A stretch of 54,370 nt of DNA. Source: a virus. The stretch is from the IMG/VR virus record IMGVR_UViG_3300046167_000449, positions 1-54,370 of that record. The stretch is one strand, 5' to 3'. Of this stretch, positions 23,211-50,303 are shown one piece after another. The notes below the pieces were generated by a model that searched no databases, was not told the origin of the DNA, and saw only the letters and a program-made list of their open reading frames with translations. Every line of letters starts with the position of its first letter. Position 1 is the first letter of the stretch. A program made the position numbers and the translations under genes.

Positions 23211-24484
23211 ATGAAGATATACACAAATTTTACAGAATTCTTAAACGAGAAAGCTCCAGGTAAACAACTTGGAGAGTTTCGTATTTGAAGGTGGGGCCGC
23301 TGGCCACATGATGCACCCATTCGATGACCATTCATTAACATTTGCTGATTTCAAAACTATTGTAAGATCTGCACTACAAGGAGGTCTTGATTTTGAAGAG
23401 ACACCAACTGAAAAGACAGATGGTCAGAATGTATTTGCAACTGTAAAGGATGGTAAAGCAATGTTCGCTAGAAATAAGGGACAATTAGCAAATCCACTAG
23501 ACCTAAATGGTATCATTAAGATGTTCACTGGCCACGCTTCAAAGCTGGTTGAAGAAACATTCATCTTTGCTGCTAAAGATCTAGCAGAAGCGCTCCCAAA
23601 GCTTAAGGACCAGTCTATATTTATGGACGGCCAGTCTTTTATTAATATGGAGCTCATTTATTCTAAAAACCCTAATGTAATCTATTACGATAGAGATGTT
23701 ATTCAATTCCATGGTATGAAAGTTACTGATGGCAATGGTAATATTATTGGTGAAGAGAATATTGCAGGTGAAATAGTTAAAGCACTTAAAGAATTAAAAG
23801 CGGATGTGCAAAAGACCTTTACAATAATTCCCCCTCAAATTTTAAAGTTAGGAAAAGATATTAACTTTGATGATAGAGTCGGCTATTACGAAAAGGCGAT
23901 AAATAAACTAAGAGATACTTATGGTTTATCAGATCAAGATGAAGTCAAAATGTATCACGAAGCTTGGTGGAGAAATGAAATCGAAAAGTATTTTGGAGAT
24001 TTAGACCCAGCATTAAAAGAAGGTCTTTTATTAAGATGGGCATACCTAGACAAGAAGACTCTAAATATGAGAGAGTTAAAGAAGGCAGTTACTCCAGATC
24101 AAGCAAAAGCCGTTAAAGAATATGACGGTCAAAGAAATAAGAAGTATAAAGAAAATATACTACCTTTTGAAAACCTATTTTTAGAATTAGGTGCAGATGT
24201 TTTAAAGAACGTTTCTAATTTTGTTGCTGCTAATCCAGAAGCTGAGAAAGCTAGATTACATAAGCAAATCAGAACTGAGGCTGACAAAGTTAAAAAGAAC
24301 GGCGATCTAAAACAAATCGAGAAGGTAGAAAAAGAATTAAAGAGACTAGAAGGGTATCGGTGGTATCGAGTCAATTATTCCAACTGAAGGCCTAGTCTTT
24401 AAATATAATGGTAAAACATTTAAACTAACGGGTACCTTTGCTGCAATTAACCAGCTAATGGGTATCATTAAATATGGTAGATAA
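23211..24484 (+). CDS. Ligase-like nucleotidyltransferase with targeting-like N-terminus
   Basis: This gene has three frames joined by single-base insertions at about 23270 and 24355. It starts MKIYTNFTEFLNEKAPG (FTEFLNE resembles the T4 internal-protein targeting sequence). GGAAGHMMHPFDD, a signature I know from uncharacterised proteins of T4-like marine phages, follows. Covalent nucleotidyltransferase motifs are TEKTDGQNVFAT (motif I Lys), MDGQSFINMELIY (motif III-like) and TEGLVFKYNGKTFKLTG (motifs IV-V). It may ligate or adenylylate RNA, DNA or protein; the substrate is unknown. The stop overlaps the next start (TAATG). Confidence 0.65.
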
Positions 24485-26343
24485 TGGCACTAAATAATTT
24501 AAAAACATATTTCGAAGGCGCTAACTCAAATGAGTTTATGGATTTACTTAATAACAAATGTATTGTTACTGAGAAAATTGATGGCTCATCTTTTCATGTA
24601 AAGAGAAATAAAACAGATTTCTCTTACTATAAGTCTGGTTCAAAGACTGAGATGAATGTTATAGATCGTACAATCGTTAGATATTACGAGAACGCGATTA
24701 GACATTTTAAAACAGTTACTGAAGAGAACAAGTTAGATATGCCTTTTGATTGGAAATTTGGTTTTGAATATTTAGGAGATAATAAGACTATTGATATTGA
24801 ATATGATGTATTACCAAAGTCTAATTTAGTTTTAACGCATATACAAGTACTACAACCTTCTAATCCAAATAAAGTTAGAAAGGTAATTAGAGATACTAAG
24901 ATTCTAAATAAATGGGCAGATAAATTAGATGTTAATAGACCTCCAGTTCTTTTTGAAGGTCTTTTACATTCTGGTCAAAAATCTGCAATCGTTGATGTTT
25001 TAGAAACGAGTATAAATGAATTTGAAGAGAGATTTGAAAATCCTGATAGACCTTCTTTTACTAGAGTAGTTTATAGTATCTTTAATGAAAATCAAAAAGC
25101 ATCAGCTTTAATGCACGATCTTTCTAAAGATGTTTCTGGTTTTATAGTTAACTTTCATGATGGAAAGGGACTTAAATCTTTTGTCTTAGAAAAGTTTAAT
25201 AAACAACCAAGACCAGAAAGAAAACCATCTGACATGTATCAGATTTCTATTTTAGACATCGTTGAACATTTTATGCAATTTGATATTGATTCAATAGAAT
25301 TAAAAGAAGAAACATCTGACAAAAGATATTTAGAATTAATGTCAGAGATGTTTAATAGTTATATTGACGCAAATGCTACAAAATATATTGGAGCTAAATT
25401 TGACTCTGCAGATTTTGCAGAATCTCCTATGTTTGAATTAAACCATAAATTCTTACAAAACGAAAAGACATTAACTTTAGTACAGGATAAAATTTTAGCG
25501 GAACTATTTAAAATTACTTTAGGTTCTTTTAGAAGAAAGAGAAGTAAGGAGACTGATATTATTTCTGGAGATGTGTTAACAGGATTAAATGAGCTTATTG
25601 AAAAGGTTGAAAATAAAATATTAGCTAAAGCAAATGAAGATAGCGTAATGAACTTTAAACAGTATTTAGTAAATCAAAGAATATCTGCTGAAGTATCACC
25701 TGTTATGGAGGCTTTAAAAGTAGACTATCCAGAAAAAGGTAAACAATTAGTAAATATGTTTGTTGGTAGATTCCAACCATTTACATTAGGACATGCTAAA
25801 GTTGTAGAAACAATTCATAAGCAAAATGGCTATCCTGTAGTTATTCTATTAGTTAAAGCTAAGAATAAGAAAAAGGAAGATGCATTTAAGAGACCTTATG
25901 ATGAGGCAACTCAAGTGGCTATGATAAACAGATTAAAGGGTAAATTACCTATTGAAGATATTTTCGTAATTCCAACTGGAGGTATTGATACTATGTTTAA
26001 TGCAATGAGACCTAAATACGAACCTGTATTATGGGGAACTGGAAGTGATAGAATGAGAACTTATGGTTTTCAAGTAGATAAGCAGGAATATAGAGATGCT
26101 CTAGATGTTAGAGATGATTTTGGTTTATTTGAAATCCCTAGAACAGGAAAGAATATATCAGCAACTCAAGTAAGAAATGCAATGCTAGATGGCGATGAGA
26201 AGCTATTTAAGAAACTAACTCCTAAGCCATTACATAACATGTATGCCGAGTTAAAACAAAAATTAGAAGACTCGATGGGAGTTATGGCAGAATCTACAGA
26301 TGTAGAGTTCTTAACCTTCGATGATTTTATTAAGAATATATAA
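24484..26343 (+). CDS. Fusion: RNA ligase-like nucleotidyltransferase plus NMNAT-like domain
   Basis: The gene encodes 619 residues in one intact frame. Residues 1-250 are ligase-like: TEKIDGSSFHVKRN (motif I, Lys nucleophile), FGFEYLGDN (motif III), FIVNFHDGKGLKSFVLEKF (motifs IV-V). A helical middle contains MNFKQYLVNQR, another targeting-like motif. Residues about 420-590 are an adenylyltransferase of the NadM/NMNAT type: VGRFQPFTLGHAKVVE (HxGH-like) and ISATQVRNAML (ISxTxxR). The C-terminus, EFLTFDDFIKNI, again resembles the targeting motif. Combining NAD synthesis chemistry with a ligase suggests NAD recycling or nucleotide repair; this is inference. Confidence 0.75.
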   Translation: MALNNLKTYFEGANSNEFMDLLNNKCIVTEKIDGSSFHVKRNKTDFSYYKSGSKTEMNVIDRTIVRYYENAIRHFKTVTEENKLDMPFDWKFGFEYLGDNKTIDIEYDVLPKSNLVLTHIQVLQPSNPNKVRKVIRDTKILNKWADKLDVNRPPVLFEGLLHSGQKSAIVDVLETSINEFEERFENPDRPSFTRVVYSIFNENQKASALMHDLSKDVSGFIVNFHDGKGLKSFVLEKFNKQPRPERKPSDMYQISILDIVEHFMQFDIDSIELKEETSDKRYLELMSEMFNSYIDANATKYIGAKFDSADFAESPMFELNHKFLQNEKTLTLVQDKILAELFKITLGSFRRKRSKETDIISGDVLTGLNELIEKVENKILAKANEDSVMNFKQYLVNQRISAEVSPVMEALKVDYPEKGKQLVNMFVGRFQPFTLGHAKVVETIHKQNGYPVVILLVKAKNKKKEDAFKRPYDEATQVAMINRLKGKLPIEDIFVIPTGGIDTMFNAMRPKYEPVLWGTGSDRMRTYGFQVDKQEYRDALDVRDDFGLFEIPRTGKNISATQVRNAMLDGDEKLFKKLTPKPLHNMYAELKQKLEDSMGVMAESTDVEFLTFDDFIKNI

Positions 26344-26779: not shown

Positions 26780-26968
26780 ATGGCAACATTCGAAGACTTT
26801 TTATCAGAAGGTAAGAAAATACAAATTAAAAGAAGGTATACTGAGAACCACCCTGCTTCAACAGTAGGTAAAACTGCTAGCGTAAGAAACGCAGTACTTA
26901 AAGCAGTTAAAGATGGTGTAATCACAGAAGAAGAGTTTACTAAAATACTTTCTGAATTATCCTGGTGA
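26780..26968 (+). CDS. Internal-protein-like polyprotein, segment 1
   Basis: It starts MATFEDFLSEGKKIQIKRRY; FEDFLSEG is the closest copy here of the T4 targeting and cleavage sequence. A helical EEEFTKILSEL region follows. Deleting one T near 26960 continues it as PGDHRQWRTRN to LRILAELDEEPKAAG (to about 27090). A second insertion in GGGG there leads into the frame at 27067. After both joins this is a single gene from 26780 to 28878. Confidence 0.5.
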   Translation: MATFEDFLSEGKKIQIKRRYTENHPASTVGKTASVRNAVLKAVKDGVITEEEFTKILSELSW

Positions 26969-47516: not shown

Positions 47517-48632
47517 ATGATTGAACCTAAGGTAATTAAACAAGGAGCCAAAAGAGTATGGGTCCTTGGAGACTTACACTTTGGTGTAAGAGCAAACTCG
47601 GTCGAGTGGCTAAATATTCAAAAAGACTTCTTCGAGAACATGTTTATCCCAACATTGAAGAAGCATGTGCAACCGGGTGATGTCCTAGTACAAGTAGGAG
47701 ATACCTTTGATAATAGACAGTCTATTAATATTAAGGTATTAAGCTATGCCGTGGATCTATTTGAAAGACTAGGTCAAATTCTACCATGTTATGTAATCTG
47801 CGGTAACCATGATATTTGGGCTAAGAAGTCAAATGATATTTCATCAATCGATAGTTTAAAATGGATTCCTAATGTACAGGTTTACAAAGAGCCAGAACTT
47901 TTAAATTGGTCTGGTAAGAATGTATTATTAATGCCGTGGAGAAGAGATGCAGAACATGAAGCAGAAACTCTAGCAGATTATCCACAAGCAGATATTGTAT
48001 ATTGTCACTCAGAAGTTAGAGGTATTTACCTTAATGCTAAAGTTAAGAATGAGCATGGTACAGATTCTAATATCTATGACAAATATACAAGAGTTTACTC
48101 TGGTCATATCCACTTCAGACAGGAAAGAGGTAAACTATTAATGGTCGGTGTGCCATATCAATTAACAAGATCCGATAGAGATAATCCGAAAGGATTTGAT
48201 TTAGTCAATTTAGAAAATATGGAAGAGACTTTCTTTGAGAATCATATTTCCCCTAAATTTCTAAGATATAACATTAAAGCGCTATATGATATGCCTCTCG
48301 GCAAGTTTAAGGAACAAATAGAAAATAACTTTGTAGATCTATTCGTACCTTCACAAATCGCCACAACCAATGCATTGAGCCAGTTGGTTAATGAGATACA
48401 ACATATATCAAGAAAATTAGAGCCTAATATTTACGAAGAAGATTCATATATCGATAAAGACTTTTATGATATAGATGAAATTGAAGAGATGTATAAGAAT
48501 TACAATATTCTTAATCTTTGTAATATGTATATTGATGGTATGAAACAAGACGAGGATTTAGCTCTAAAACTAAAGAGCAAGTTAAAACAATTGTATACAC
48601 AATGTGCTTACAATTATGACACCGACAAATAA
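47517..48632 (+). CDS. 47: Recombination nuclease subunit gp47 (SbcD/Mre11-like)
   Basis: The 371 residues carry the metallophosphoesterase nuclease motifs LGDLHFG, VGDTFDNRQ, CGNHDIWAK, YCHSEVRG and YSGHIHFRQ, followed by the C-terminal capping and gp46-binding region. With gp46 it resects double-strand ends for recombination and degrades host DNA. Its start directly follows the previous stop, and its own stop overlaps the gp46 ATG. Confidence 0.9.
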   Translation: MIEPKVIKQGAKRVWVLGDLHFGVRANSVEWLNIQKDFFENMFIPTLKKHVQPGDVLVQVGDTFDNRQSINIKVLSYAVDLFERLGQILPCYVICGNHDIWAKKSNDISSIDSLKWIPNVQVYKEPELLNWSGKNVLLMPWRRDAEHEAETLADYPQADIVYCHSEVRGIYLNAKVKNEHGTDSNIYDKYTRVYSGHIHFRQERGKLLMVGVPYQLTRSDRDNPKGFDLVNLENMEETFFENHISPKFLRYNIKALYDMPLGKFKEQIENNFVDLFVPSQIATTNALSQLVNEIQHISRKLEPNIYEEDSYIDKDFYDIDEIEEMYKNYNILNLCNMYIDGMKQDEDLALKLKSKLKQLYTQCAYNYDTDK

Positions 48633-49489
48633 TGAGAATAGACTATATTGAGTTTAAGAACTTTGCTTCTTACGGAAATCAAGTACAGCGGATAGAATTT
48701 AGAAAGGATGCATCAGAGTTATTTTTAACTTTAGGTAAAAATGGTCATGGTAAAACTACTATTGCTAATGCAATTATATACGGTCTATATGGTAAAGTTG
48801 AAGGTGTAAAATTAGCAGATCTACCTAATCGTATTAATAAAGAACTTCATGTAAAGATTGGTTTACAATGTGGTACTATGGCTATAGAAATAGAGCGAGG
48901 TATTGCACCAAATAGATTTAGCGTCTTAATTAATGGAGTTGAGTTTGATAAAGCAGGTAAGAAATCTGTACAAGAGTATTTAGAAGATGAAGTATTCGGT
49001 ATTCCATATCATGTATTTAAAAATATAATTATTCTATCAGTAAATGATTTTAAATCATTTTTAACTATGTCTAATCAAGACAAGAAGCAGATTATCGATA
49101 GAATGTTTGGCTTCTCTATTCTTAATGATATGCAAAGGCAAATCAAAGACGAACGTAGAGATATTAAATATGATATTGATGCTTATGATGCTGAGTTAAA
49201 TGAAATAATGAATTCAATCGGATCAGTTAAAGGTAAATTAAATACTTTACTTGCAGAATCTAAAACTGCAAATAAATCTAAGATCCAAGAATTAAAAGAC
49301 CAATTAGTTACTCTACATGAAACTGTATTAGATATTGAAGCTAATCGTACGAAGGAAGAAGATGCGATGAATAAGTTCAATAAAGAATATAATGAAAAGA
49401 GAACTGAGGCTGGGGATATTAAAAGAGAGATTGATTATCTAAATAAGAAGTTAAAGTTATATGAAAGTGGACATTGTCCCAACTTGTGA
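48632..49489 (+). CDS. 46: Recombination ATPase gp46 (SbcC/Rad50-like), segment 1
   Basis: This segment holds the N-terminal ATPase half with Walker A TLGKNGHGKTTIANA and the Q-loop region VFKNIIILSVNDFKSFL, then the first coiled-coil arm. The frame ends within the zinc hook. Removing one C of CCC near 49478 restores CPTCETKL, the CxxC hook that dimerises Rad50-type proteins. This repair shows the break is a one-base insertion. Confidence 0.9.
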   Translation: MRIDYIEFKNFASYGNQVQRIEFRKDASELFLTLGKNGHGKTTIANAIIYGLYGKVEGVKLADLPNRINKELHVKIGLQCGTMAIEIERGIAPNRFSVLINGVEFDKAGKKSVQEYLEDEVFGIPYHVFKNIIILSVNDFKSFLTMSNQDKKQIIDRMFGFSILNDMQRQIKDERRDIKYDIDAYDAELNEIMNSIGSVKGKLNTLLAESKTANKSKIQELKDQLVTLHETVLDIEANRTKEEDAMNKFNKEYNEKRTEAGDIKREIDYLNKKLKLYESGHCPNL

Positions 49490-50303
49490 AACTAAGTTAA
49501 CTTCTGATTGGCACGTAAAACAAAAAGATTCTTTTACTGAAAAGATTGATACCAGTACAAATGATATTAAGTCTATTAAAACAGAGATGGATGCTCTACA
49601 AGATAAAGTTTTAAAGGCTAGAACTGCTAAACTAGATTTAGAAGGTCAGATCTCAGATAATAAGGTAACGATGCGAGGTCTTAAAGGAGAACTATTAAAA
49701 TTAAAAGATACTCCAGAGGGTGCAGACTTCGATCACTTAAGAGGTCTTATTACAGAGTTTGAAGAGAAAGAAGCTGAAAAATCTGCAAATAAAGATCAGT
49801 TAAATGGTGACTATAACTTTATGGAAATAGTAGAGAATATTTTAGGTGAAGATGGCGTAAAGAATTTAGCAGTTAAAACTATTCTACCAGGACTTAATAG
49901 CAATATTGCAGCCATGGCACAAACCATGCACTTACAATTCCATATTAGATTTGATGAGAAGTTCAATTGTATTATTAATCACTTAGGTGAAGATATTAAT
50001 CCAATGACACTTTCAACTGGTGAGCGTAAGAAAGCAGACTTTATTGTTATTATTGCAATTATTAAAATCTTAAAATTAAGATTCCCACAATTAAACCTTC
50101 TTTTCTTAGATGAGTTATTATCTTCAGTAGACCATGATGGTGTTTACAATATATTGAAGATTTTAAATCAAGTAATTAAAGAACATGAAATAAACACATT
50201 CGTAATTAATCACTCGGTACTACCACATGAGATTTTTGACAAGAAAATTGAAATTTACCGAGAAAATGGATTCTCTAAATTTACAATAGAGAACATAGAT
50301 TAA
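49461..50303 (+). CDS. 46: Recombination ATPase gp46 (SbcC/Rad50-like), segment 2
   Basis: Real sequence begins at the zinc hook (about 49474); the ATG at 49461 is out of frame. The returning coil is followed by the ABC signature TLSTGERKKADF, Walker B LNLLFLDELLSSVD and the switch His in FVINHSVLPHE. The joined protein has about 557 residues (T4 gp46: 560). Confidence 0.9.
   Translation: MKVDIVPTCETKLTSDWHVKQKDSFTEKIDTSTNDIKSIKTEMDALQDKVLKARTAKLDLEGQISDNKVTMRGLKGELLKLKDTPEGADFDHLRGLITEFEEKEAEKSANKDQLNGDYNFMEIVENILGEDGVKNLAVKTILPGLNSNIAAMAQTMHLQFHIRFDEKFNCIINHLGEDINPMTLSTGERKKADFIVIIAIIKILKLRFPQLNLLFLDELLSSVDHDGVYNILKILNQVIKEHEINTFVINHSVLPHEIFDKKIEIYRENGFSKFTIENID

Follow-up and report, generated by a model that had tools for sequence, protein, structure and literature searches.

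A phage fusion of an Rnl2-like pseudo-ligase with an NMNAT-like nucleotidyltransferase, encoded beside a candidate ligase

The fusion gene and its overlapping neighbour

The analyzed window is the 54,370-nucleotide stretch of the IMG/VR virus record IMGVR_UViG_3300046167_000449. Two neighbouring genes on its plus strand overlap at TAATG, which joins the stop codon of the first to the start codon of the second. The following features were assigned to them:

23211..24484, plus strand: KT-family candidate ligase with EKTDGQN, RNK, NxE, PTEGxVF and KLTG and the N-terminus MKIYTNFTEFLNEK (intact in locus L009)
24484..26343, plus strand: fusion of an Rnl2-like pseudo-ligase and a HIGH/NMNAT-like nucleotidyltransferase, 619 aa (one open frame, Pfam, AlphaFold2/Foldseek, IMG/VR)
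24484..25638, plus strand: Rnl2-type RNA-ligase fold, aa 1-385, bounds approximate (fold match, motif counts, purifying selection)
24571..24585, plus strand: motif I EKIDG, aa 30-34, its DG unconserved in the family (translation, family counts)
25648..25674, plus strand: linker motif MNFKQYLVN, aa 389-397, weakly capsid-targeting-like (PSSM score 0.8)
25735..26283, plus strand: HIGH-superfamily NMNAT-like nucleotidyltransferase domain, about aa 418-600 (Pfam, NCBIfam, PDB profile, fold)
25765..25794, plus strand: HIGH motif GRFQPFTLGH, aa 428-437, with G-R-F-Q-P and G-H invariant (30 aligned domains)
26041..26052, plus strand: GSDR motif, aa 520-523, with G, D and R invariant (30 aligned domains)
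26155..26175, plus strand: ISATQVR motif, aa 558-564, with S-A, V and R invariant (30 aligned domains)
26311..26337, plus strand: C-terminal capsid-targeting-like motif LTFDDFIKN, aa 610-618 (PSSM, family statistics)

The ORF translation places EKIDG, GRFQPFTLGH and ISATQVR on one 619-aa chain, as an earlier note made from the sequence alone had proposed. That note also suggested structure prediction of both domains, and the prediction bore both of them out: the AlphaFold2 model, built from an alignment of 33 relatives, had a mean pLDDT of 82.8, and Foldseek comparison with PDB matched T4 RNA ligase 2 (E 1.4e-7) and NadM 2qjo (E 1.9e-5) to the same chain. The model also matched a 623-aa protein of an uncultured phage over its full length (1.2e-48). 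One scan of IMG/VR revealed 77 loci with the fusion, and 91 distinct fusion sequences were present in the gathered IMG/VR loci; therefore, the joining of ligase-like and NMNAT-like domains is genuine and is not an assembly artefact. A full-length relative with 34% identity is encoded by a 462-kb huge phage, and the N-terminal domain alone, without the HIGH domain, was found in four distinct phage genomes of 634-735 kb. Neither the fusion nor any cellular homologue turned up in genome contigs, and a plasmid search revealed no homologue of the N-terminal domain.

The KT gene of the window carries two apparent frameshifts in the assembly, and the ORF caller reports it as 23269-24387. Intact copies are present in L009, where the fusion protein shares 96% identity with that of the window, and account for most of the roughly 240 KT matches in the gathered loci. 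Of 205 fusion ORFs, 194 have a KT gene immediately upstream. At one locus (L148, 5001-10942) two fusion genes flank a single KT gene, apparently owing to a tandem duplication.

Active-site residues of the ligase-like and HIGH domains

The N-terminal domain of the fusion is predicted to adopt an Rnl2-type fold, its closest fold being T4 RNA ligase 2 (gp24.1). Sequence evidence for this is weak, since the Pfam RNA_ligase match at aa 25-162 is below threshold (E 0.011); the profile of the domain had no credible match among PDB sequences. Unlike T4 RNA ligase 2, the family lacks the combination of KxDG, the motif IIIa Phe, the EG of motif IV and the Lys of motif V (for the roles of these residues, see PMC2100368). 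Among 101 members having residues at the relevant columns, motif I contained Lys in 93, Asp in 14 and Gly in 39 (Ala in 61). The position of the adenine-stacking Phe of motif IIIa was occupied by Thr in 96 members, the Glu of motif IV was replaced by Asp, Ala or Ser in 90, and the Lys of motif V was present in 79. The window copy has Thr, Ser and Val at these three positions, respectively. Since DG is not conserved, KxDG is a trait of the window copy and not of the family. Judged by these residues, the N-terminal domain is a pseudo-ligase whose active site has been lost across the family. The dN/dS ratio is about 0.1 in both the ligase-like and the HIGH domain of the fusion, indicating purifying selection, and thus the ligase-like fold appears to be maintained for another function.

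These data bear on the proposal of the earlier note that an active NAD-dependent ligase in this chain releases NMN, which the NMNAT domain recycles. The window copy does contain KIDG, and an Rnl2 fold shares one chain with an NMNAT-like domain, but the DG of motif I is gone in most relatives and the window residues of motifs IIIa, IV and V have been replaced. Moreover, it is ATP, rather than NAD, that RNA ligases within this superfamily are known to use. Since the N-terminal domain is a pseudo-ligase, such an in-chain loop is very improbable.

In the fusion genes of L001, L009 and L005/L007, the HIGH domain has diverged far less at synonymous sites than the ligase-like domain (0.30 vs 0.92 in L001), which suggests domain-level recombination.

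The upstream KT family presents another picture than the pseudo-ligase. EKTDGQN, R-N-K, NxE, F-H, EGxVF and KxTG show little or no variation across the family, which therefore conserves the motif set of polynucleotide ligases (KxDG, Ia, III, the IIIa Phe, EG and the motif V Lys). The predicted KT model (pLDDT 87) had RNA or related polynucleotide ligases as its leading PDB matches, all of them weak (best E 4.4e-3), the first being T4 Rnl1, Rnl2, and archaeal and fungal RNA ligases. No model describing the family was present in Pfam, PHROGs or NCBIfam, and its profile had no credible match among PDB sequences. The conserved motifs point to the KT gene, and not the N-terminal domain of the fusion, as the real candidate ligase; the ligase part of the earlier idea fits the former, a gene absent from that note, and fails for the latter. 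An origin of the N-terminal domain as a derived copy of the KT family was considered and rejected, since profile comparison showed no relation.

The C-terminal domain has the (H/T)xGH and ISxTxxR signatures and the Rossmann-like fold of HIGH nucleotidyltransferases. Pfam CTP_transf_like matched aa 425-565 (E 3e-9), and GRFQP, GH, GxDR and SAxxVR did not vary across 30 aligned HIGH domains. By profile, the nearest solved structures among PDB sequences were the NMNATs MJ0541 (4.5e-9) and NadM (1.8e-7), both ranking above PPAT; 2qjo is also close by fold. The designation of this domain as NMNAT-like was therefore correct by both fold and profile. Unlike NadM and archaeal NMNATs, the fusion has no Nudix domain and scores far below the NMNAT cut-offs: the best specific NCBIfam model, archaeal NMNAT TIGR01527, gave 33.5 bits against a cut-off of 181, and none of the curated NMNAT models reached its own cut-off on this domain. 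The invariant residues make adenylyl transfer likely, and NMN is only the best guess for the acceptor, because the NMNAT models stay below cut-off and the folds of PPAT (E 5.5e-5 to the fusion model) and further HIGH enzymes are similar.

The same closeness to PPAT and other HIGH enzymes, together with the annotation of HIGH-domain relatives as 'cytidyltransferase', would suit a metabolic or structural cargo, in which the product of the HIGH domain is some other activated metabolite (e.g., a CDP- or ADP-conjugate) and the role of the ligase-like domains is limited to nucleic-acid binding or scaffolding. Given that the profile-nearest enzymes are NMNATs and that the catalytic motifs of KT are invariant, we consider this rather unlikely.

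HIGH domains next to ligase-like proteins in other phages

The pairing of HIGH and ligase-like domains was seen in three architectures. At more distant KT loci, the two domains share an ORF, HIGH preceding KT, in 24 of 25 cases, the remaining locus being cut by the contig end; the HIGH signature of these fusions is GRFQPMGxHH or GGFKPLTGAH. The 'cytidylyltransferase like protein' WWT39297 of Microcystis phage Mel-JY01 likewise combines KT ligase-like and HIGH parts in one protein, but, in comparison with the fusion of the window, the HIGH domain comes first and the Rnl2-like pseudo-ligase is missing. In L239-L241 the N-terminal domain and the HIGH domain are encoded by separate neighbouring ORFs.

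Another of the closest known systems is the cyanophage 'cytidyltransferase' T4-GC190 (S-PM2 p142, P-SSM4_155, Syn19_174 and S-CREM2 gp154; PHROG 395/3041), matched by 518 phage records. It resembles the fusion in the PHROG families of its HIGH domain, a T4-type targeting tag and, in several phages, a ligase-like KxDG partner (T4-GC71), a KWDG...PEGYV...KFVNR protein whose gene overlaps that of the HIGH 'cytidyltransferase'. It differs in that the partner belongs to another, non-alignable family, is usually a separate gene and has intact-looking motifs, and in that the tag is N-terminal rather than C-terminal. In the S-PM2 record (L291-L295, 103025-104804), ligase-like and HIGH regions lie out of frame across p141 and p142; the 591-aa S-PM2 'cytidyltransferase-like' protein in BFVD may be a joined p141/p142 version.

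Profile alignment among the three ligase-like families (the N-terminal domain of the fusion, KT and the cyanophage KWDG proteins) revealed no relation, and therefore the coupling of HIGH and ligase-like domains seems to have evolved at least twice. Their context suggests a common role for the three families.

Such repeated coupling, along with the RNA ligases among the fold matches of KT, is in line with an RNA-repair accessory, in which the HIGH domain would modify RNA ends or supply a cofactor and KT would seal host or phage RNAs that nucleases of defence systems have cut. However, the PNK-type P-loop family (AAA_33) was present in only 4 of 13 relatives and a KptA-type gene in none of them, so the usual set of end-healing enzymes is incomplete; KptA was rejected as an end-healing partner. 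RNA repair is a possible but less likely role.

Terminal motifs and a proposed virion cargo

The N-terminal pattern of KT proteins, MKxxx[YF]xxF[LIV]xE, resembles the tag MKTYQEFIAE of T4 IPII/IPIII, and a profile derived from 53 KT N-termini gave this tag a score of 13.2. T4 IPII and IPIII are small DNA-associated proteins without enzyme domains. At the other end of the gene pair, 52% of the C-termini of 91 fusion proteins scored at least 5, vs 0.5% of shuffles; the motif of the window fusion itself scored only 6.7. Terminal motifs of the kind carried by T4-type internal proteins are thus found at the N-terminus of KT and the C-terminus of the fusion. In a 178-kb relative, the profile matched the N-termini of 9 genes (0.6 expected) and the C-termini of 4 (0.3 expected), the fusion being among the latter. 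This analysis superseded a simple regular expression applied to the window only, which gave a non-significant 4 genes vs 1.5 expected. The earlier note had seen targeting-like motifs both in the middle and at the end of the protein. The terminal one is statistically strong; the internal one was rejected as a targeting tag in view of its weak scores (0.8 in the window, at least 0 in 42% of the fusion family and at least 3 in only 5%).

The T4 tag brings proteins into the head and is then cleaved (PMC5694885). Four of six tested cyanophage GC190 proteins scored 7.5-13.5 on the targeting profile, and the N-terminus of S-CREM2 gp154 scored 16.6. GC190 was detected in cyanophage virions by mass spectrometry (PMC3037559), and the gp154 cytidylyltransferase is present in the virion proteome of S-CREM2, for which the authors caution that co-purification is possible (PMC10665884). 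The C-terminal statistics agree with the suggestion of the earlier note that the fusion may travel in the capsid, and the protein is probably packed inside the particle, although its motif is C-terminal, whereas T4 tags are N-terminal.

Further proteins with the same N-terminal tag are encoded by the 178-kb relative (L273-L280; G001 32205, 44338, 125451 and 174421). By sequence reading only, they include ATP-grasp-like, P-loop ATPase-like and ATP-dependent DNA ligase-like proteins, and the tagged set may represent a wider enzyme cargo.

A small stand-alone KRRYTExHPA domain with a targeting-like N-terminus is encoded at 26780-26968 of the window; in L240 (9260) and L241 (9510) this domain is joined to a HIGH domain.

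Computation shows the fused chain, its two folds, which active sites are kept or lost, the pairing of the genes and the motif statistics; the catalysis, substrate, packaging and infection role that we infer for the fusion are those of an injected virion-cargo nucleotidyltransferase of a T4-like phage working with the KT ligase. The fusion and the catalytically intact-looking KT ligase would be made from the overlapping gene pair and drawn into the prohead by their T4-type tags, N-terminal in KT and C-terminal in the fusion, and both would be injected with the DNA. With ATP as donor, the HIGH domain would transfer an adenylyl (NMP) group to a phosphorylated acceptor; this is most likely NMN, which would yield NAD+. 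The N-terminal RNA-ligase fold would not self-adenylylate and would provide a platform for docking or for binding nucleic acid. As infection begins, the couple would supply a dinucleotide and seal or modify nucleic-acid ends. Taken in full, this scenario stands about evenly between being right and being wrong.

An NMNAT-like domain could also rebuild NAD during infection, a NARP2-like activity that would suit the countering of NAD-depleting defence considered in the earlier note. The presence of the domain supports this, as does the occurrence of the NadV-type PF04095 in all five huge phages and two of the 13 large marine relatives. On the contrary, PF04095 was not found in the other 11 large marine relatives, whose contigs may be incomplete, and nicotinamide and ADP-ribose are not substrates for an NMNAT acting by itself. 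Every NadM-bearing phage in a published survey reportedly also had NadV (PMC9503650). The lack of NadV in most of these relatives weakens NAD reconstitution, which we regard as unlikely, and favours the injected couple of a HIGH enzyme and a ligase. This couple would act on nucleic-acid ends or provide the ligase with a dinucleotide, and the pseudo-ligase would serve as a platform. A more specific version, in which the injected couple adds or removes NAD-type or adenylyl RNA caps, with the NMNAT-like domain acting on 5'-triphosphate-A RNA and NMN, the pseudo-ligase holding the RNA and KT sealing or transferring, is highly improbable; the authors of PMC8131947 knew of no enzyme that adds NAD caps post-transcriptionally.

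These results link T4-GC190, a virion enzyme whose role has long been unknown, to partner ligase-like proteins, one family of which (KT) is described by no library searched. A 'cytidyltransferase, function unknown' of abundant marine phages may now be viewed as part of a two-enzyme cargo that is injected when infection begins, which is a testable proposal.

The host of the window phage is probably a marine member of Bacteroidota, since the GC content is 34%, Shine-Dalgarno-like sites precede only 2 of 33 genes, and leaders are A-rich. Elsewhere in the window, two overlapping ORFs (48632-49489 and 49461-50303) look like one SbcC/gp46-type gene (48632-50303) broken by an apparent frameshift.
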